Below are positions 4,533 through 55,746 of a stretch of 64,000 nucleotides of DNA, piece by piece (the stretch's first letter is position 1; each line of letters starts with the position of its first letter). The notes below the pieces were generated by a model. It saw only the letters and a list, made by a program, of their open reading frames with translations, did not search any database and had not been told where the DNA came from. Position numbers and translations under genes: made by a program. Origin of the DNA: Spirochaetota bacterium (GTDB lineage Bacteria; Spirochaetota; Brachyspiria; Brachyspirales; JACRPF01); NCBI GenBank assembly GCA_016214035.1, contig JACRPF010000017.1, positions 1 to 64,000 of the forward strand. The letters are read 5' to 3'.

Positions 4533-6598
4533 TCAATCGTACCTTTGTCGGTTATTTCTGCCGGGTCTTCATCTTTCAGCGGCACTGCAGACACGGTCTT
4601 TCCTTTCCTTTTACCGCTTTTACCGAGCGACGCTATTTTTTCACGAAGTTCTATCGCCTTTTCAAACTCGAGGTTTCCCGCTGCTTTGTGCATCTCCGCC
4701 TCAAGCGCCGCCAGATATCGTTTTTTATCCTTATCCGGATCGAGCTTGTTCTCATCGGCGAAACGCCGGAAATCGAAATGTATCGCGAGCTGTTTTTCAA
4801 CAACCACTTCCCGCTCTACGATATCCTGCACCTTTTTGATGATAGTCTTCGGTGTAATGCCGTTCGCCTCGTTATACGCGGTCTGTTTCTCACGGCGCCG
4901 CTGTGTCTCGCGGATGCACTTTTCCATAGCATCGCTCATGCGGTCGGCGTACATGATGACACGGCCTTCCACATTTCGCGCCGCGCGCCCGACAGTCTGT
5001 ATCAGCGATGTTGCCGAACGCAGAAAGCCAACTTTGTCAGCGTCGAGTATTGCCACAAGCGAGACCTCGGGCATATCAAGCCCTTCACGCAGGAGGTTGA
5101 TGCCGATGAGAACATTGAACACACCGAGCCTCAGATCGCGGATAATCTCAACACGTTCGATGGTCTCGATATCGGAGTGCAGATACCGCACGAGTACGCC
5201 GTTCTCGGAAAGATACTGCGTGAGGTCTTCCGCCATTTTTTTGGTGAGCGTAGTCACGAGCACCCGCGCACCGCTTTTCACCGTGCGGCTTATCTCGCCG
5301 AGCAGATGATCGATCTGGCCTTCGCACGGCTTGACCTCGATCATCGGGTCCACGAGTCCGGTGGGCCGGATGACCTGTTCGATGGGTGTGCCGCTCAGTG
5401 AAAGCTCATAGTCGCTCGGGGTAGCGCTCACATAGATGCGTTCATGTATGATGCTTTCGAACTCTTTGAAAATAAGCGGGCGATTATCAAGCGCCGACGG
5501 AAGCCTGAACCCGAAATCGACGAGCGTCTGTTTCCGGCTGCGGTCGCCGAAATACATGCCGCGCACCTGCGGAAGGGTTACATGCGATTCGTCGACAACG
5601 GTGAGGAATTCCTTCGGAAAATAGTCGAGAAGACACGCCGGCCGTTCGCCTTCCTTACGCCCTGAAAGCGGGCGGGAATAGTTCTCAATGCCGGAGCAAT
5701 ACCCCATTTCACGAAGCATCTCGATATCGTATCTCGTCCGCTGCATAATGCGCTCGGCTTCAAGAATTTTTTTCTGAGCGGTAAGCTCGGCATAGCGCGC
5801 GGCAAGTTCATCCTCGATGAGCTTCACCCCGCGGTCAATTTTCTCCCGCGTAGTTACGAAATGCTTGGCCGGATAGATGACCGCACGCGGAAGCGATGCC
5901 ACCCTGTTGCGCGTTATCGGATTAACGCGGCTGATGCGTTCCACGGTATTGCCGAACATCTCGATGCGGGTGATATCGTCCGAATACGCGCTCATCACCT
6001 CGATGACGTCGCCGATGACGCGAAACTGCGCCCGCTCGATGGATGCGGTGCTCCGCGTGTACTGGATCTTCACGAGCTGCTTGAGTATCTCGTCGCGGTC
6101 GTATTCCTTTCCCGCCTCTACGCCCACGTACAATTCCCGGTAATCCTCGGGTGAACCGAGACCGTAGATGCACGAGACGCTCGCCACGATGATGACATCA
6201 TTTCGTTCAAGAAGCGCGGTGGTTGCTTTGAGCCTGAGACGGTCTATCTCATCGTTTATCTGCGCGTCCTTATCGATATACAGGTCTTTGGACGGCACAT
6301 ATGCTTCGGGCTGATAATAATCGTAATATGATACGAAATACTCAACGGCGTTATCGGGGAAAAAATCACGAAACTCACGATACAATTGCGCCGCAAGCGT
6401 TTTATTATGCGACAGCACCAGAGTCGGCTTATTGAGCTTTTCGATTACATTCGCAATCGTGAATGTCTTGCCGCTTCCGGTAACACCGAGCAAAGTCTGA
6501 TGTGTTTTGCCCGAGCGGATGCCGTTGACAAGCGCATCAATAGCCTGGGGCTGGTCTCCCGCCGGGGGGAAGTCACTTTTAATTTTAAAATGGTTCAT
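4529..6598 (-). CDS. uvrB: UvrABC system protein B
   Basis: Excinuclease subunit UvrB, 689 residues, which verifies DNA damage in nucleotide excision repair. Walker A GVTGSGKT is at about 38-45. The beta-hairpin region contains [20 protein letters not shown]. Also present are [15 protein letters not shown] (motif II), [19 protein letters not shown] (motif VI) and a C-terminal UVR motif ([11 protein letters not shown]) for UvrA/UvrC contact. The ATG at 6598 is preferred over a GTG at 6613 because that GTG overlaps the predicted -10 box (6612-6617) and would not lie in the transcript. It is followed by murD with a 4-bp overlap. Confidence 0.97.
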
Positions 6599-46492: not shown

Positions 46493-49168
46493 TCAGAACT
46501 GCTGGCTCATGCTCACGACAAACTGCCAGCCGCGTCCCAGCGGTTCCCAGTTCATCCAGTTGCCGACCATATCACCCAGAAACGCCTTGCCGCCCTTGTC
46601 TCCGTCAAAGTCCTTGAACCGGTACCCGTCGAACACAAAGCGTTTGGCGAGAAAAAATCGTATCGGCAGCATGGGTATCAGCACACGAATGCCGAGGCCC
46701 GTGGAATAGATATAATTGCGTGCATCGAGGATATACCCCGGATTAAAACCGATATCGTTCTGCCAGCCGCTCGCTTTCGCATAGGCGGGATTGAACTCCG
46801 GGTGCCAGCCCTTGGGATTATACCATGTCTGGCCCATATCAAGGAACGCAACACCGCTGAGCACATTGGGAACGAAGGTATACCGGTATTCAGCGGACAG
46901 CCGCAGGCGGCTTCTGCCGAAACTGTAATAATTCGTGGATGAGTTGGTATTTGTCCCGTCATAGGATGAAGATAGTGTCGTATATCGCTGCAGTCCGTGT
47001 TGTGTCTTGAACGCGGTATAGACATCACCCGACCAGCCGCGCACATCCTCGAGATAATTGATGAAGAAAAGCGTGCTGCCTTCATTACTCATTGAGCTCG
47101 AAAACGGATTATCGAGCAATGCTCCGTATTCACCGTAAACGACGAATGCACTACCCAACGGCAGCGGCTGTACATATGAGGCGTTCAGCGTTACTTTCGT
47201 CAGCGTAGTCTCACCGAAATAGATATCGGCGTTGAAACCGGCCATCCATCCGCGTGTTGGATTCAGCGTATTATTCCTGCTGTCTCGCGTTAAATTAAAC
47301 GTAAGAATAAACGTATTGTACCAGTATTTCGAATACCACTCAGTGAACGTCTCCGAATAGTTCGTACCGCCGTCATAACGTTTATACAGATTCCGTTCCG
47401 TCAATTTATTGGCGATGTCGATCGGCAGATACCGCGGCGCGATGCTGTTTGCCCCCATATTTGTTGACTGATAATACGTGGCAATGGAATAACGCCCTGA
47501 TATCGACGTGAGGAAATAATCCCAGAAATAGTATCCGAATCTCAGATAAAAATCGAAGCTTCTGGTACCATACTTCGCATAATTAGTGCCGTCATCCAAA
47601 AGTGTATCCAACTGCGTCTGATAGTCGTTATATGATATTTCGCTGGCAAAATAGAACGGCAAGCCGAGCACATACGGCTCAACGAATCCGCCCGACACTC
47701 TGCGCGTGAACTGCCCGAATTCGATCTTGCCGTTCACCGTCTGCCCGTTGCCGAAGAAATTGATCTCGCGAATCTCGAAATTAAGTCCGAAGCCGCTTGC
47801 CGTCCCCCAGCTGCCGCCGCCGGACACCATACCGGTCTGGCCTTCCTCGATCTTGAAAATGAGCGTCATGAGCCCTTCGGTTGTTCCCGGTTTCGCGTCG
47901 AGTGCCACATCCTTGAAAAACTGCGTATTGAAAACTTTTTCACGGCTCGCCTGAATTTTCAGCGCATTGAATATTTCGCCTTCCTGAACATCGAGATACC
48001 GCCGGATGATGTTTTCTTTCGTCTTGGTCATACCCTCGATGCGTATGTTCTCGATGTGAGCCTTGTCACCTTCATAAATGTCATATTTGATATTGACAAT
48101 ACGGTTCGAATCATCAACGTCGGTGACCGGACGGACACGGCTGAAAATATATCCGCGCTCCGAATATTTCATCTGCAGGAACTGCTGATCCATCGTGGCG
48201 ATCTCGAAATTGTATGTATCGCCTTTTTTGGCCTTGAAATCCGAGACGATGGTGTCAAGCGTGATGAGCCTGTTACCCTCCACCGTGATGTCGCCGAACA
48301 GATACCTATCACCCTCATAGACATCGATATCGATAATCATGTCTTTTGCGGTCTTTTCCTGCGGATTGCGCCAGCGGTAATCGATTCGCACATTGCGGAT
48401 GCGCGCCTTGTAATACCCGCGCGTCTTGTACAGCTTGACTATCTTTTCCTTATCGAGTTCAAAACTTGCCTGCTTGAATTTACCCTCGCTGATGAAAAAG
48501 AAATCCTCTTTCGTCTCCATCGCGCCTTTCAGGTCGCCTTCATTGATCTCTTTATTGCCATGAAAGCGTATCGAACGCACCCGGATATCGCGTCCTTCTT
48601 CGATGAAAAAGGTGATGCTCACCGAGCCGGATTTTTCGTCCATGGAAACGTCCGGCCGCACCGTCGCCGAAAGATAGCCGTCATCGTGATAGAGCGCGAC
48701 AAGCGCATCAACCGCCTCATCAACCCTGCGCCTGCTGTAGGTTGCGCCGGCTTTGATGCTGTATGTCTCCACCAGCTCTTTGAACTGCTCCGGTGTTTTT
48801 TTGTTGTACCCGGAATATTCCACCTTGACGATAATAGGCCGTTCCTCGACGTTCACCGTGAGCGCAACACCGCCGCTTGAGGTCTGCGCCTCGACGGAAA
48901 CATTGTCAAAATTACCGGTGGAAAAAAGATTCTTTATATCATTATCGAGCACGCTGAGCTCAAGTTTCCTGCCCTTGCCGGTGACCATGAGTCCCGTCAC
49001 GAACGATGTCGATTGCCGTATGTTGCCTTTAACGGTCACCGATGTTACGGTCAGACCCTCATAAACGGCAGTGTTTTCCGCATCTTTGACGCGATCAGCT
49101 GCAAAACTGAACGATGCTGCAAGCGCACCGAGCAAAATAAAAAGCGCGCTCACTCGTCGAAGACACAT
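46493..49168 (-). CDS. bamA: Outer membrane protein assembly factor BamA
   Basis: An 891-residue Omp85 protein: a signal peptide, about five POTRA domains (residues roughly 35-410, for example VTVKGNIRQSTSF, IRFHGNKEINEGDL, ITVEGNRLITLDTI and IRIEGMTKTKENII), and a C-terminal 16-strand barrel with GGSWGTASGFG, GWMAGFNADIYFGETTL and a final SMSQQF ending in Phe. It inserts beta-barrels into the outer membrane. The ATG at 49168 shares its A with the tamB stop (TGATG), with GGAG 7 nt upstream. It is the last gene of the exbD operon. Confidence 0.95.
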   Translation of the reverse strand: MCLRRVSALFILLGALAASFSFAADRVKDAENTAVYEGLTVTSVTVKGNIRQSTSFVTGLMVTGKGRKLELSVLDNDIKNLFSTGNFDNVSVEAQTSSGGVALTVNVEERPIIVKVEYSGYNKKTPEQFKELVETYSIKAGATYSRRRVDEAVDALVALYHDDGYLSATVRPDVSMDEKSGSVSITFFIEEGRDIRVRSIRFHGNKEINEGDLKGAMETKEDFFFISEGKFKQASFELDKEKIVKLYKTRGYYKARIRNVRIDYRWRNPQEKTAKDMIIDIDVYEGDRYLFGDITVEGNRLITLDTIVSDFKAKKGDTYNFEIATMDQQFLQMKYSERGYIFSRVRPVTDVDDSNRIVNIKYDIYEGDKAHIENIRIEGMTKTKENIIRRYLDVQEGEIFNALKIQASREKVFNTQFFKDVALDAKPGTTEGLMTLIFKIEEGQTGMVSGGGSWGTASGFGLNFEIREINFFGNGQTVNGKIEFGQFTRRVSGGFVEPYVLGLPFYFASEISYNDYQTQLDTLLDDGTNYAKYGTRSFDFYLRFGYYFWDYFLTSISGRYSIATYYQSTNMGANSIAPRYLPIDIANKLTERNLYKRYDGGTNYSETFTEWYSKYWYNTFILTFNLTRDSRNNTLNPTRGWMAGFNADIYFGETTLTKVTLNASYVQPLPLGSAFVVYGEYGALLDNPFSSSMSNEGSTLFFINYLEDVRGWSGDVYTAFKTQHGLQRYTTLSSSYDGTNTNSSTNYYSFGRSRLRLSAEYRYTFVPNVLSGVAFLDMGQTWYNPKGWHPEFNPAYAKASGWQNDIGFNPGYILDARNYIYSTGLGIRVLIPMLPIRFFLAKRFVFDGYRFKDFDGDKGGKAFLGDMVGNWMNWEPLGRGWQFVVSMSQQF

Positions 49169-52100
49169 CAGAATCTCCATTTCGTGCTTAAATTAACACT
49201 GACATTGGTCATATTGAAGGGGTCCATTGTATATTCGAAAATCAAATTTGCAAGGTCGGAGAACTGAGCAAGATCGAGTTCCACCGCGAGTTCATGCTGG
49301 AATAGTCTGTCATATGTGGTAGAACCGGGACTTCCCGCAATGGTTAAATTATATTTGATGAAAAAGTCGGGCATGAAATCGACATATTTATTCATGGAAA
49401 AATATTTTCCGAGAGAAAACCGTGTATCCTGTATGTAATACCCCGGATTTTCCGCAATCATCATCAGATTGGTGGCGCCGAGCAGTGACAGCGACATTTT
49501 ATTGAATGCACCGGTCTCAATGCCGAAATAATCCAGCCCCGTGAACCGCCGCAGATTCCGTTCGATGGGCCTGAGGACGCCTTCACGCAGCAGGAGGTCA
49601 GCCGGAAGGACATTCGCGAGCGCACCCATCACCTGGCCGGTCTCACTGCCCGCCGCAATCTCGCTCTTCACCGCCGGAAGGCCCACCAGTTCCCTGACAT
49701 ATTCGTCCTTAAGCGACGGTATCGTATAGAACCGTATCGGGAGCGAATCACCTGACACCTGATTTTTTATGATCGCCGACAACCTCGATGAGACCTCGAG
49801 ATACAGCGTCACATCGAGCGTTTCATTCCCCGCTTTGTATTTTTTTCTCGTCCGTCCGCGTCCGGTGATTATCGGATCGAGGCTGTTGACTTCGGGAAAC
49901 GTCACCGATAGCGTCTCAACCTGGTAATTATTATTGAGATAATACGCGACTCCACGCTGCGCCTCAAGGGTGCCGCGGAGCGCGAGCGTGGAATCGATGG
50001 AACGGCCGAGGATGCGGAGCGCCGCGCCGTCTTTCACATACACGTCGCCGGCATACATCGACGAGAAGTGAACGGCGTTACCGCCCTGTACGTTGATATT
50101 CCATGCGGCATTTCTGAAAAAATCGCCGTACCGCGGACGATAATTCTCTTTTGTCTTTTCGAACATGATATCGCTGTTGCGCGTAAGCACATTCCCGCTG
50201 ATGCGCGGATAGTTGAAGCTGTCATTGAATTCAAGATCAAAACTCACCGGGCCTTCCACCCGTACAAACCCGAGCTGAGCCAGCGCCGGTAGCGCATAGC
50301 GGCCCGCGGTGCTTTCGAGTTTGAGCTGAAGCCTGTCGATGAAGTTACGCGCGAGAAAAACGGCGCCGGAAACCGTTATTGCACGATCGCCCTCGCGAAG
50401 TTCAAACTCGTTGATAAATATCTTTTTCTTTTCGAAATACACATCAAAGACAGAACCGTTGAAATCCATATTGAACAGATTCAGCCGTATTTTGCCTTTG
50501 CTTCGGAACCTGCCGTTGAACTCAAGATCGTTGACCGGACCTGTGGCCGTAAGAAACAGCGTATATTTTTCACCCTTCCGTTCGAAGGGATATGCCTCGC
50601 CGTCAATGCGCGCGAATAGGACGCGGTTGACGAACTGCAGGAAGGTGGCGTCAAGCTCATCGGACGTCAGAAGCAGATCGGCATTCCCCGCGCGTATTGT
50701 CCCTTTTGCAGCAACATAATCGATGCCGTCATAAAAATAAGTCACGTTGACGAGCGACCGATCCGGAACATTTGCGTCGCGTTTTACCACACCGCGTAAT
50801 CCGTGCTTGGTCTCGGAGACGATGGTCGTAACGCCGCGTTCCTCTTCGATGAATGCGGAGAACGGCGTTATTTTTTTCTTATTGAGCATGATATCGCTGG
50901 TAAGCACCGAGGTAATCCGCCGTTTGCCGCGCTGCTGCGAGGTATATGACAGCTTGCCGTCGATGATACTGAACAGCTCGAAATTCCTGAACTCCGCTTT
51001 CAGCTCCTGTTTCTGCGGCGACAGAATGGCCCGGTATATCTGTATTATCTGCTCGTTGGGAACAAAGTATCCGCGAGCGCCTGTTTTTTTCACGAGCGCG
51101 TCGCTTATCTCAAGCTGCTGCCCGCGCCATTGGGCACGCCCGGTGATATCATACCGCTCGGCATAAAAATCCGTTCCGAGCAGAGAACATTTCTGAACCA
51201 GAACCAGCGGATCCTGCAGCGTTCCGGAGATGCTAACCTTTGCCTGTACCAAACCTTCAAAATACGGCAGATGAAAGAACTGCCGCGTTGAGATATTATT
51301 AATATTCAATTCACCGAGAATATTGTCCTTATTGAAATCAAGAAAAAAAACCAGCATTCCGTTGGATGATGTATTTGCAAGCGTACCCTCAATTCGCAGC
51401 GCCTCGTCCGCATATATCCTGCCCGTTCCGGTCAACGTATCACCGCCCCAGGCATAGGAGAGCCGATCGATGATAAGACCGTCAGCATAATGGAACCGCG
51501 CGAGCACATCGATGGGAGTCTGCCCTTTGCGGCGCAGATGCGCATCACCGGTGAAGCGCGCCTCGGGTTTTGCCCTGGTGGCAAGCGTGCATGATGCCGA
51601 CGCCTCGAAATCTTTTGCCAGTGAAATAAATCCGGTACGAAGCGCGAGATACACGCCTTCAGGATCCGCTGTGCCGCGGATCGTAATGCTCCCGTTCTGT
51701 GCAGACACGAGCACCGTGCGCTGCCTGCCGCCGGAAACATTCCCCGTGACCGCGGTGCGCATACCGGGCGCATCGATCATGCCGCGTATCGCATAGCCAC
51801 CGTCCGCGGTGCGCTCAGCCGAACCGTTCACGCCGATGGACCCTCCGGGAAGTTTCACAGAAAGATACGGCACGGCAATCGTGTTCTTCGAAGCGCTGAA
51901 CGCGAGCGTCGCATTGGTTACGCCGGTATATGATTCTCTCACAAATGCCTTCAAGCCGTGCTGCTGTCCAGAACGAAGTGTGTAATCCGCATCAATGAAA
52001 AGATCCGAGGCAAATGAACCGGCGCCGATGTAGGAGGAGAGTAATACCAGCGGCAGACTTCTGAGTGATATCGAAAGTATATTGGTTGATGCCGTGCCGA

Positions 52101-53466
52101 GATCAAGCACGGCGTCAACACGCATGACATTGCCGTTCGTATCATGGAAGGAAAAAAGCTTCCGCTGTGCATCGTACAGGAAACCGAAATCAGACCGGGC
52201 GCTGTAATACGTCCCGTACCGGAGATCGAGCACCGACAGGAGATACCCGTCACGCTCCGCGTCGGCATACGGCATGAACAGCACCGAGGCATCAAGACTC
52301 GACCCGCCGAGGCGCACACCGTGCACCGTAACCGATGCGCGACCGGGAACGAGTCCTTTTGACAGCCGCCATGCGGCCGATGCCCGAAGCCATGCCGCAT
52401 CATAGGATACGAACAGACGCCCGTCGACGGCATCACCATCACCGCCGAGTGCCGCCTGCACGACACTGCGCCTGCTGCGCATATCGAACGAACCTGAAAA
52501 CCGGGTTACGCCGTTGCTTCGCGATGCGGTCAGCGACAAAGCGTTGGTCGTGATCGCGTTGATCTCAGTGTCAAACGCCGATGCTATGATATTCACCGCA
52601 TTCGTATGGAATAACCAGGGCAGCGCCGCAACTGATATTTTTTTCACCATGGTCGGATTCAGGCGCGTCGACTGGAATGCCGCTGCGCCGGTCTGTGAGC
52701 CTAAATCATACGAGAATGATCCGAGAGTTTCACCGAACTCCGTCATTCCGCCCGAAACCAAGGTGCCGCTGCGCTGTATGGAAAGATACCAGGAAAACAT
52801 ACTGTTACCCGCATCATAGCCGGTGAACATGCCGTTGAACGCGGTAAGTGCTGCATCGGCGGCAACGCGAAACGTCAGGCGTGTCTTTTCATCGGGCGAA
52901 AAAAATACCGCCGCCAGAAAACCATGCATCGCCACATGCATATCGATATCGATGTTTGAGACGATGGTCAGCGGAGCACTGCGCCCCGGCACACCAACCG
53001 CAATGCTCACATCATGCACCGCAACAGCTGTACCGAAATAGCGCGCCGCCACATCGGTCATCGACGGAACGGTGAAGTTGCTCACCGCGGAGTTTCCCCC
53101 GCCGTAGGATATGACCTGCACGCCGTATGCGTCGATCGAGCCGATGATGTATCGGGCATTGAATGTAGTGACCAGTTTCGCATAATCCGGCATGACGCGC
53201 AGTTCATTGACGGTGACGAACCGCTCATCGCGTTTCTCGGCACGCGCCGCCGACAATCTGCCGATACGCACGCCGTCCCAGAACGAAAAAGTCACCCATG
53301 ATTTTTTGAGGAGATAACCGGAGCGTTTTGCCTCGGCCATAAGCGAGCGCACCTGAACATCCACTATCGCGGCCATGACCAGCTGAAAACAGAACAGCAG
53401 CATCGCCGCAGTGACCAATGCCGCCACGAGTTTGTGTTTGCCGATAAATGTCAGGAATGCCTTCAT
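49168..53466 (-). CDS. tamB: TamB-like translocation/assembly protein (DUF490)
   Basis: About 1432 residues: an N-terminal signal anchor (KLVAALVTAAMLLFCFQLVM), then a very long repetitive beta region (AsmA/TamB fold, a lipid-binding groove), and a C-terminal DUF490 domain (PVSFDLEFNDSFNYPRISGN, VTFPEVNSLDPIITGRGRTR, VSSRLSAIIKNQVSG, FTGLDYFGIETGAFN), ending in NLSTKWRF. It is thought to move phospholipids or help insert barrels with BamA/TamA. ATG 53466 or GTG 53472 (overlapping the tonB stop) are both possible. It partners bamA directly downstream. Confidence 0.92.
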   Translation of the reverse strand: MKAFLTFIGKHKLVAALVTAAMLLFCFQLVMAAIVDVQVRSLMAEAKRSGYLLKKSWVTFSFWDGVRIGRLSAARAEKRDERFVTVNELRVMPDYAKLVTTFNARYIIGSIDAYGVQVISYGGGNSAVSNFTVPSMTDVAARYFGTAVAVHDVSIAVGVPGRSAPLTIVSNIDIDMHVAMHGFLAAVFFSPDEKTRLTFRVAADAALTAFNGMFTGYDAGNSMFSWYLSIQRSGTLVSGGMTEFGETLGSFSYDLGSQTGAAAFQSTRLNPTMVKKISVAALPWLFHTNAVNIIASAFDTEINAITTNALSLTASRSNGVTRFSGSFDMRSRRSVVQAALGGDGDAVDGRLFVSYDAAWLRASAAWRLSKGLVPGRASVTVHGVRLGGSSLDASVLFMPYADAERDGYLLSVLDLRYGTYYSARSDFGFLYDAQRKLFSFHDTNGNVMRVDAVLDLGTASTNILSISLRSLPLVLLSSYIGAGSFASDLFIDADYTLRSGQQHGLKAFVRESYTGVTNATLAFSASKNTIAVPYLSVKLPGGSIGVNGSAERTADGGYAIRGMIDAPGMRTAVTGNVSGGRQRTVLVSAQNGSITIRGTADPEGVYLALRTGFISLAKDFEASASCTLATRAKPEARFTGDAHLRRKGQTPIDVLARFHYADGLIIDRLSYAWGGDTLTGTGRIYADEALRIEGTLANTSSNGMLVFFLDFNKDNILGELNINNISTRQFFHLPYFEGLVQAKVSISGTLQDPLVLVQKCSLLGTDFYAERYDITGRAQWRGQQLEISDALVKKTGARGYFVPNEQIIQIYRAILSPQKQELKAEFRNFELFSIIDGKLSYTSQQRGKRRITSVLTSDIMLNKKKITPFSAFIEEERGVTTIVSETKHGLRGVVKRDANVPDRSLVNVTYFYDGIDYVAAKGTIRAGNADLLLTSDELDATFLQFVNRVLFARIDGEAYPFERKGEKYTLFLTATGPVNDLEFNGRFRSKGKIRLNLFNMDFNGSVFDVYFEKKKIFINEFELREGDRAITVSGAVFLARNFIDRLQLKLESTAGRYALPALAQLGFVRVEGPVSFDLEFNDSFNYPRISGNVLTRNSDIMFEKTKENYRPRYGDFFRNAAWNINVQGGNAVHFSSMYAGDVYVKDGAALRILGRSIDSTLALRGTLEAQRGVAYYLNNNYQVETLSVTFPEVNSLDPIITGRGRTRKKYKAGNETLDVTLYLEVSSRLSAIIKNQVSGDSLPIRFYTIPSLKDEYVRELVGLPAVKSEIAAGSETGQVMGALANVLPADLLLREGVLRPIERNLRRFTGLDYFGIETGAFNKMSLSLLGATNLMMIAENPGYYIQDTRFSLGKYFSMNKYVDFMPDFFIKYNLTIAGSPGSTTYDRLFQHELAVELDLAQFSDLANLIFEYTMDPFNMTNVSVNLSTKWRF

Positions 53467-53468
53467 GA

Positions 53469-54383
53469 TCACTTCGGCGAAAAGGTAATGGTGATAGTTC
53501 CCGTATCGATGCGTTCGGAGCTTATTGCCGCGAATCGATAGCGGCGCAGCGCCTCAACCGCACTGCGGTCGAATTCATTATACCCGGAACTTTTTACTAC
53601 TATCGGTGCGTATACCTTGCCGTCGGGGGATACTTTTATCGAAACAACAACCGTTCCGCCGATGCCGTTCTGCTTGAGCCGTGCGGGATATTCCGGCATC
53701 TGCGATGCAACCGGCTTGCCGCGCGAGGTACCGTCCCATTGTATTGCGGAATCATTTTTATCATCTTTGACGCCGGACTTGCCGCGTCCGTCATCTTTCC
53801 CCGGCGCAAAGAGTGACTTATCATCGCCGCCTCCCCGGAGGAATTCACCGAGCCTGTCCTTCGTTTTTTTTCCCGTACTGCCCGCCGTCCCCGTTCCTGA
53901 GCCTGCAGCCGTTCCCGATGCGGTGCTGCCGCTTTGCCCATCGCCTTCCGAAGCTGTTTTGTCATGCGGTGTGGTCTTCATGACGATATCATCAGGGTTT
54001 ATCCGCTCAGGTTTACCCGAACCGGCGGCCGCGGCGTTTCCCGATGATGCGGGGGTCAGCGTCTCGGGAGTAAGTGTTTCCGGCTCAAGCGTCTCGGGCG
54101 ACGGAATGGCCGGCGTACCGGTTGATCGCGCGGTGCTCCGGACCGGAACTGTTGCGCTTCCGCTTCGAGCTGTCACCGGTGATGTATCGGAACGCGGTTT
54201 GTAATCGGGGTTTGCGTAGAATTTCACATCATCGGCAACGACAATACTTGTCTGTCTGCCGATGGCCGAGGATATATCGTTCCGATAGAAGAGCCCTATC
54301 AGTGCGAGAAGTATGACATGAAAAACAAACGATACTCCGAACGCAAACGGCAGCGTATCGTCATGCAGAAATAGTTTTCTCAT
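53469..54383 (-). CDS. tonB: TonB family protein
   Basis: A 304-residue protein with one N-terminal span (GVSFVFHVILLALIGLFY), a long low-complexity Pro/Thr/Ser/Gly linker crossing the periplasm, and a C-terminal TonB domain (MPEYPARLKQNGIGGTVVVS, then IKVSPDGKVYAPIVVKSSGY and FDRSAVEALRRYRF). It would pass energy from an ExbBD motor to outer-membrane partners. Its start overlaps exbD by 4 bp and its end overlaps tamB. No TonB-dependent receptor is in the window. Confidence 0.92.
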   Translation of the reverse strand: MRKLFLHDDTLPFAFGVSFVFHVILLALIGLFYRNDISSAIGRQTSIVVADDVKFYANPDYKPRSDTSPVTARSGSATVPVRSTARSTGTPAIPSPETLEPETLTPETLTPASSGNAAAAGSGKPERINPDDIVMKTTPHDKTASEGDGQSGSTASGTAAGSGTGTAGSTGKKTKDRLGEFLRGGGDDKSLFAPGKDDGRGKSGVKDDKNDSAIQWDGTSRGKPVASQMPEYPARLKQNGIGGTVVVSIKVSPDGKVYAPIVVKSSGYNEFDRSAVEALRRYRFAAISSERIDTGTITITFSPK

Positions 54384-54811
54384 CGCCCTCGCTCTTTAGC
54401 TTTTGTCGCAAGACTGAGCTTGACGAATCCGGCATTCTTCGCCATATCCATAACATCCATAAGCCGGCCATAGGGAATTTTCTCGTCGCCGCGTATGATG
54501 ATGGGACTTTCCACCCCGCGCTCACCGGCAAGTGCCCGCATCTTCGCCGCAAGTTCCGAAGGAGTCACGCGCTCCTGATTCAGGTGATATATGCCCTCTT
54601 CGCTGATCGTGACGATGATGCCTTCGTTCTTCACTTTTTCAGCGGTGCCCGTTTTCGGAAGCTGTATCTTTATCTGCGGCGTATTGAGCATCGTGGTGCT
54701 CACAAGCAGGAACAGGACCAGATTAAAAAGGATATCGATCATGTTGGTCATATTGATAAGTGAACCGATGTCGCCGTCGGAACTACTTGAATAACTGCGT
54801 TTGAATTTCAT
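54380..54811 (-). CDS. exbD: ExbD/TolR family biopolymer transport protein
   Basis: A 143-residue motor subunit with one membrane span (INMTNMIDILFNLVLFLLVS) containing the essential Asp near residue 26 that carries protons, then the periplasmic domain (KIQLPKTGTA, ISEEGIYHLNQERVTPSEL, PIIIRGDEKIPYGRLMDVMD). The usual Pro before the Asp is absent. The ExbB/TolQ channel partner is not encoded next to it and must lie elsewhere. It has a consensus promoter. Confidence 0.93.
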   Translation of the reverse strand: MKFKRSYSSSSDGDIGSLINMTNMIDILFNLVLFLLVSTTMLNTPQIKIQLPKTGTAEKVKNEGIIVTISEEGIYHLNQERVTPSELAAKMRALAGERGVESPIIIRGDEKIPYGRLMDVMDMAKNAGFVKLSLATKAKERGR

Positions 54812-54840: not shown

Positions 54841-54898
54841 ATTATAATTGCCGATTGGAAACTGTCAACCTTGACAATTCGCTTTTTTCGCATACGAT
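54841..54898. promoter_or_regulatory. Back-to-back divergent promoters (exbD and flotillin-like)
   Basis: Minus strand: TTGACA (54863-54868), 16 bp, TATAAT (54841-54846), perfect hexamers for exbD. Plus strand: TTGACA (54871-54876), 16 bp, TACGAT (54893-54898) for the flotillin-like gene. The two -35 boxes are 2 bp apart and form the palindrome TGTCAACCTTGACA, so RNA polymerase could serve only one direction at a time. Confidence 0.75.
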
Positions 54899-54933
54899 AC
54901 GCCTCACGTCACTTTGAGACAGGAGACTATCGT

Positions 54934-55746
54934 ATGAGCGTGCTTTTTCCGGTACTTCTCGCAAGCGGCGGTGTTCTTGCCGCGCTTATCATTTTTTTCG
55001 TCATCATTAAACTCCGCTATTACCGCATAAAACCCAACGAAATCATCATCGTGTACGGACGCCGTCAGCATCCGGACGATATGTCCTCGGGTGACACCGC
55101 AGGTTTCCGCATCGTCGAGAACGGCGGCACTTTTGTGATCCCGCTCATCGAACGCGTAACCTCGCTCTCGCTTGCAACGATGACGATATCGTTCTCGCTC
55201 AAAGGCGTGCTCACCAAGCTCGGCGTACCGGTAAACCTCATGGGCATTGCCGAGATTAAACTGCGCGCCGATGCAAAAGCCATCGCCAAAGCGGCACCGC
55301 TCATCCTCGACAAACCGCTTGACGAGATCAAACGCATGGCGGTTAATATCCTCGAAGGACATCTCATCGAAGCGCTCGGCACTATCGATCCCGAGATGCT
55401 TTTCCTCAGACTGCCGGAAGTAAATAAAAAGTTCATTGAAGCATCACGCGACGATCTGCTTAAGATCGGCTATGAAACAGTAACACTCACCGTGGAAAAA
55501 GCGTGGGACGACAACGGCTACTTCGAAGCGCTCGGCAGATCGCAGCTTGCCGACGTGAAAGCGGAAGCGTCCATCGGCGAGGCGAAAGCGAATGTGAAAC
55601 GGCTCAAAGCCGAACGCGATCTTGCCGAAGCCACCAAGGGCTACGAAGCCGAGATTGCGCAGTATCAGCGCATCATCAATGAGAACAGGGCAAAATCAGA
55701 ACTCGCATATGAAATAGAGAAGACTAAGGCCGAACGCGGCAGATAG
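54934..55746 (+). CDS. Flotillin-like SPFH/band-7 protein, short form
   Basis: A 270-residue membrane protein. The ATG at 54934 has AGGAG upstream. One N-terminal span (VLAALIIFFVIIKLRYY) is followed by an SPFH domain (IKPNEIIIVYGRRQ, MTISFSLKGVLTKLGVPVNL, MGIAEIKLRADAKAIAKAAP) and the start of the EA-rich coiled coil (DVKAEASIGEAKANVKRLKA). Bacterial flotillins are usually about 500 residues; this one stops after some 50 coiled-coil residues. It may be a natural short form or a truncation; no frameshifted continuation is visible before ribD. Such proteins organise membrane microdomains. Confidence 0.82.
   Translation: MSVLFPVLLASGGVLAALIIFFVIIKLRYYRIKPNEIIIVYGRRQHPDDMSSGDTAGFRIVENGGTFVIPLIERVTSLSLATMTISFSLKGVLTKLGVPVNLMGIAEIKLRADAKAIAKAAPLILDKPLDEIKRMAVNILEGHLIEALGTIDPEMLFLRLPEVNKKFIEASRDDLLKIGYETVTLTVEKAWDDNGYFEALGRSQLADVKAEASIGEAKANVKRLKAERDLAEATKGYEAEIAQYQRIINENRAKSELAYEIEKTKAERGR

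Follow-up and report, generated by a model that had tools for sequence, protein, structure and literature searches.

Ton motor genes linked to tamB and bamA in Spirochaetota, with exbB of the source family on another contig

Could a TonB motor energise the assembly of the outer membrane, or the delivery of lipid to it? According to the general view, BAM operates without any energy source (PMC13067283), which counts against TonB-energised assembly, and the periplasm is described as being without obvious energy sources (PMC10900882). The question is raised by a locus in a spirochaete genome (G000; 5.2 Mb, 22 contigs), which together with one other sampled genome, G001, makes up family f1. In a 64,000-nt stretch of this genome, the whole of which was analysed and is called the window below, four overlapping genes, exbD, tonB, tamB and bamA, lie on the minus strand from 54811 to 46493. 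A sequence-only reading had proposed that these genes form one operon that joins a proton-driven TonB-ExbD pair to TamB and BamA without the channel protein ExbB. We therefore examined the identity of the genes, the conservation of their linkage and the whereabouts of exbB.

The four genes and their products

The operon and its upstream region contain the following features:

54811-54380, minus strand: exbD, 143 aa; PF02472, 97 bits against a cut-off of 25.4
54383-53469, minus strand: tonB, 304 aa; PF03544, 61 bits against 24.6; TIGR01352, 68.5 against 27.1
53472-49168, minus strand: tamB, 1434 aa, GTG start; assigned by profile and fold evidence
49180-46493, minus strand: bamA, 895 aa; TIGR03303, 414 against a cut-off of 297; PF07244 five times, and PF01103
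54868-54841, minus strand: promoter-like site TTGACA-16 bp-TATAAT, about 30 bp ahead of exbD
54871-54898, plus strand: second promoter-like site, ahead of the divergent SPFH gene and back to back with the exbD site
54871-55746, plus strand: stretch with the divergent flotillin/SPFH-type gene, the promoter-like −35 of which is the immediate neighbour of the exbD operon's −35

Curated models, profiles and fold comparison thus confirmed all four genes at the positions first proposed. The consensus promoter claimed ahead of the operon was also recovered, with 12/12 positions matching in a consensus scan, and is a putative promoter called by consensus match only. An overlap of 1-4 bp had been reported for all junctions; this was correct for exbD/tonB and tonB/tamB (4 bp each), while tamB and bamA overlap by 13 bp when bamA is started at the ATG common to its relatives (MEIL...), and by 1 bp only if an internal ATG (TGATG) is used. 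Such overlaps are compatible with co-transcription of the motor genes with tamB and bamA.

The operon ExbD has a single transmembrane helix, the aspartate of which (D26) is invariant among 12 aligned ExbDs from the clusters described below. A profile of cluster ExbDs, built without family f1, scored it at 104.6 bits, versus 71 for its paralogue on contig C11. It fell below the NCBIfam equivalog cut-offs of both TolR (70.9 of 127.3) and ExbD_1 (55.2 of 152.95), and is a member of the superfamily assignable to neither equivalog. TonB consists of a transmembrane helix with the SxxxH signature (S18-H22), a Ser/Thr/Gly-rich linker, an IQWDGTSRG motif and a C-terminal domain at residues 230-301. It was recovered by a leave-one-out profile with E=1.6e-36, and the divergent TonBs of other clusters also passed such tests, with E from 1e-8 to 4e-40. 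SxxxH was present in 9/10 cluster TonBs, and the [IV]xW...R motif was found in its W form in 6/10 and in its F form in 2/10.

TamB was the least straightforward assignment, and scanning the operon protein alone against Pfam and NCBIfam gave no match to a TamB model. Nevertheless, PF04357 was matched by 8/15 members of its alignment, a profile made from the TamBs of other families recovered it with E=2e-52, and the family profile matched a solved TamB in the PDB (9xdc_B, E=2e-9). When the last 480 residues were modelled (pLDDT 68, moderate), the best fold matches were 9xdc_B and 9xdd_B, from the solved TamAB complex. Since these relatives, profiles and fold searches agree, and through them the C-terminal (DUF490) domain and the beta-taco fold were recognised, the protein is TamB, and a mis-assignment, as the silent direct scans might imply, was rejected. 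BamA has five POTRA domains and an Omp85 barrel, and the operon copy was the one BamA match in the whole genome. In G001, a second, short Omp85-type protein of 498 aa (contig C66, L049:4731-6227) aligned only to the barrel of the BamA query, without POTRA domains.

Linkage of motor genes to bamA among relatives

The same four genes in the same order were found in the sister genus (G001, L010), with identities of 77% for ExbD, 50% for TonB, 41% for TamB and 61% for BamA. The flanking genes differ between the two genomes, with another gene in the place of the SPFH gene, while the four genes stay together, which indicates that the operon is a unit. In its leader at L010, a long inverted repeat (GATGCAGAACACGGGGC...GCCCCGTGCTCTGCATC) lies at ~6280-6330, just before the exbD start codon.

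Across the phylum, exbD was located within 12 kb of bamA in 7/24 sampled families, compared with 0.39 expected by chance (P ~6e-8, under a rough null in which gene placement is assumed to be random), and chance adjacency was therefore rejected. The linkage persists from family to family while the flanking genes change. Of the named bamA loci, 58 had 4 kb or more of upstream sequence, and 18 of these carried exbD, Leptospiraceae included; the 18 comprised barrel-exbB-exbD (9), exbB-exbD (6), exbD-tonB-tamB (2) and exbD-tamB (1) arrangements, in which the barrel is an outer-membrane protein described in the following section. TonB and TamB were not both present in every cluster, and exbB-exbD-bamA was the commonest arrangement. 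Gene orders at individual loci were as follows:

exbD-tonB-tamB-bamA: L010, L024
exbB-exbD-tonB-tamB-bamA: L034
exbB...exbD-tamB-bamA: L045
exbB...exbD-tonB-bamA: L028, L032
exbB-exbD-tonB-bamA: L041
tonB-tamB-bamA: L040
exbD-tonB-tamB: L070
barrel-exbB-exbD-bamA: L020, L048

At L028, L032 and L045, an RNase R-like gene and a pair of transporter-like genes of DUF21 type stand between exbB and exbD, and two families share the order of these inserted genes. In a Leptospira-type genome (L041:8258-12885) and in G056 (L071:118-4653), exbB-exbD-tonB is preceded by genes for a 972-aa TPR protein and a barrel-like protein of ~540-570 aa, and at L041 this set leads into bamA.

The order exbD-tonB-tamB-bamA was also found on a contig of Candidatus Desantisbacteria (L143), so that it is not confined to one phylum. 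This is a single contig, for which transfer or a binning error is possible; the second of the two sampled Desantisbacteria genomes also has tamB-bamA, on a contig that begins inside tamB. The gene order thus proved to be kept in G001, and the linkage of the motor to bamA in several Spirochaetota families and on one contig of another phylum, so that the refutation foreseen in the sequence-only reading, an order absent from relatives, did not occur.

exbB and the plug-less barrel

That ExbB is missing from the operon was borne out, as no exbB was detected in the operon or within the 64,000-nt window. The suggestion that it be sought elsewhere was rewarded in both genomes of the family. Non-flagellar ExbBs of G000 numbered two, on contigs C11 and C20, plus one short weak match. 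C11 carries a complete exbB-exbD-tonB-plug receptor operon, separate from the tamB-bamA operon, and C20 encodes, in this order, a barrel protein (542 aa), a DUF4019 protein (132 aa) and ExbB (216 aa). The C20 ExbB matched PF01618 (MotA_ExbB) with 121.7 bits, and alignment showed its GLLGT and GISEALI segments to be intact. Judged by their sequences, the motor parts accordingly keep their functional residues, namely the ExbD aspartate, the TonB SxxxH and these ExbB segments. The same barrel-DUF4019-exbB set was found on C66 of G001 (L055), where the only other ExbB-family gene is of MotA size.

A first comparison of the barrels of families f1 and f9 gave a weak match. A profile was built from the barrels of seven loci of other families, with the C20 barrel left out, and this retrieved the C20 barrel among 5,666 ORFs at E=4.7e-12. 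Because the C20 barrel is homologous to the barrels that precede exbB in the clusters, the barrel-exbB half has been separated from exbD-tonB-tamB-bamA in family f1. G001 possesses a single non-flagellar ExbB and just one copy each of ExbD and TonB; as it has no Ton motor genes other than the split halves, any working motor in this genome must combine them. From this single-copy logic and the cluster homology, we infer that the C20 ExbB probably pairs with the operon's ExbD in G000. In the ExbB tree, the ExbBs of C20 and G001 were closest to those of L071, L074 and L045, the last of which is linked to bamA, and lay far away from that of C11, with weak support and some long branches. A motor without a channel was thus rejected, as ExbB is encoded on C20, and the missing exbB is a local rearrangement.

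The barrel belongs to a bamA-linked, uncharacterised family without a Pfam model. The AF2 model of its L104 homologue (20 homologues; pLDDT 87) showed 22 strands and no plug, and its best PDB matches were BtuB-type receptors. No plug domain was matched by Pfam in the exbB-adjacent barrel, and in the 476-residue model the first strand begins at residue 39. In nine named loci the barrel gene is found immediately ahead of exbB. It also adjoins bamA (at L101, L107, L108, L111, L113 and L115, among others), even in eight loci without exbB-exbD, and metK is often upstream of the full barrel clusters. The G000 barrel has a TonB-box-like segment, LVLPDVKVEG, near its start; as this is not conserved in the cluster barrels, little weight is placed on it.

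Possible partners of the motor and comparison with known systems

Our main reading, to which we assign a probability of about 0.4, is that an old Spirochaetota cluster, which comprised an ExbB-ExbD-TonB motor, TamB, BamA and a plug-less barrel of TonB-receptor type, survives with its larger half in the operon, its barrel-exbB half having moved to another contig in family f1. The C20 ExbB would form a channel around the operon's ExbD, and the two would drive TonB, which its SxxxH helix would anchor. From there TonB would span the periplasm to its co-encoded outer-membrane partners (the TamB-BamA bridge, the plug-less barrel or both), and its force would deliver lipid or protein into the outer membrane. 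That an ExbBD-driven TonB acts on one or other of these partners is a composite proposal of the same tentative standing, in which the nature of the moved substrate is conjectural too. We are more hesitant about the wider proposition that a dedicated TonB-ExbBD couples the proton gradient to TamB-BamA, the barrel or both throughout Spirochaetota, and perhaps in Desantisbacteria, such that lipid delivery or protein insertion would be actively driven. For the energising of outer-membrane assembly and of lipid flow through TamB-type proteins, the linkage gives concrete partners, residues (TonB H22 and ExbD D26) and lineages.

The operon's ExbD and TonB, with an ExbB from elsewhere, might instead constitute a housekeeping Ton system that energises nutrient receptors, such as that for B12; the promoter common to this system and tamB-bamA would then reflect no more than that all of them are outer-membrane functions, required in proportion to growth. 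G001 fits such an arrangement: it has three plug receptors, one adjoining B12-uptake genes, to be served by a single ExbB, ExbD and TonB, no other TonB being found, so that the operon's TonB type must serve ordinary receptors there too, and by elimination TonB probably energises the plug-type receptors of this genome. Likewise, none of the 61 genomes was found to bear the cluster without having plug receptors, and TonB_C was missing from genomes without plug receptors, except for one weak case (G054). However, G000 has a full Ton operon apart from this one, receptor included, and the genomes of family f18 (G047 and G058) keep two TonBs for one ExbB-ExbD pair, one beside the sole plug receptor and without the W..R motif, the other in the bamA cluster and with the motif; these two observations suggest a dedicated role for the bamA-linked motor. 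With a linkage to bamA that outlasts changes of flanking genes, and a partner barrel that has no plug, we consider the housekeeping explanation somewhat unlikely. Against the main reading stand, besides the uneven presence of TonB and TamB in the clusters, Brachyspira and its relatives, in which tamB-bamA is kept without adjacent exbD or tonB; as no TonB was detectable in Brachyspira-type genomes, TamB-BamA does not need TonB there. Each Brachyspira-type genome (L056, L057 and L058, in G018 and G002) contains one ExbB and one ExbD, which stand alone and far apart, with no recognisable TonB.

It is doubtful, though conceivable, that the motor serves mainly the 22-strand barrel, with TonB opening it or pulling a substrate through, and that bamA and tamB are neighbours because the barrel itself is an envelope-biogenesis factor. 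Its position ahead of exbB or beside bamA, its predicted BtuB-like fold, the conserved barrel-DUF4019-exbB set of family f1 and the TonB-box-like start of the G000 protein would all agree with this, but the cluster barrels do not conserve that start, the barrel lacks the very part on which TonB acts in known receptors, tonB adjoins tamB or bamA rather than the barrel, and the tonB and tamB clusters L024 and L045 have no recognised barrel of the same family nearby. A Tol-like motor, in which ExbB-ExbD-TonB would tether or move the outer membrane and hence be encoded with assembly genes in a phylum mostly without Tol-Pal, appears improbable. TolB_N gave only weak matches, in 7/61 genomes (six of them in G000, to proteins of ~290-430 aa), and ExbB and ExbD scored higher against the TolQ/TolR than the ExbB/ExbD models, none over the cut-off; yet the ExbB and ExbD of the C11 receptor operon also scored best against TolQ/TolR, so the scores fail to tell the two kinds apart, the C-terminal domain belongs to the TonB type (TIGR01352), and a convincing TolB partner was not found in most of the 61 Spirochaetota genomes.

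Compared with known systems, the operon resembles the established TamB-BamA operons of Spirochaetes (Heinz et al. 2015, PMC4494059; PMC5007114) in having tamB directly upstream of a single five-POTRA bamA, and differs in that exbD-tonB precede tamB and that relatives' clusters add exbB, with or without the plug-less barrel. TonB, ExbB, ExbD and TolR are nowhere mentioned in that study of TAM evolution (PMC4494059). Contact between TamB and BamA in Borrelia is an established finding, examined in PMC11361582 and cited, with references, in PMC12045153. The TamB/BamA/Skp cluster of diderm Firmicutes (Antunes et al. 2016, PMC5007114) likewise has a conserved tamB-bamA, but TonB, ExbB and ExbD are not named there, and no relevant report linking TamB or BamA to a TonB/ExbB/ExbD motor was found in the open-access literature. 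With Tol-Pal (TolQRA-TolB-Pal), a PMF-driven motor for outer-membrane upkeep, the locus shares related channel proteins, but most of the phylum sample has no convincing TolB, and the C-terminal domain is of TonB type instead of TolA type. With the TonB-ExbB-ExbD system of nutrient uptake, represented in G000 by the classic receptor-linked copy on C11, it shares the TonB C-terminal domain, the SxxxH anchor, the ExbD aspartate and the ExbB channel motifs, whereas the operon pairs its motor with TamB and BamA instead of a plug receptor, has its ExbB elsewhere and belongs with a plug-less cluster barrel. The parts are therefore of known kinds, and the new element is the conserved combination of the motor with TamB-BamA.
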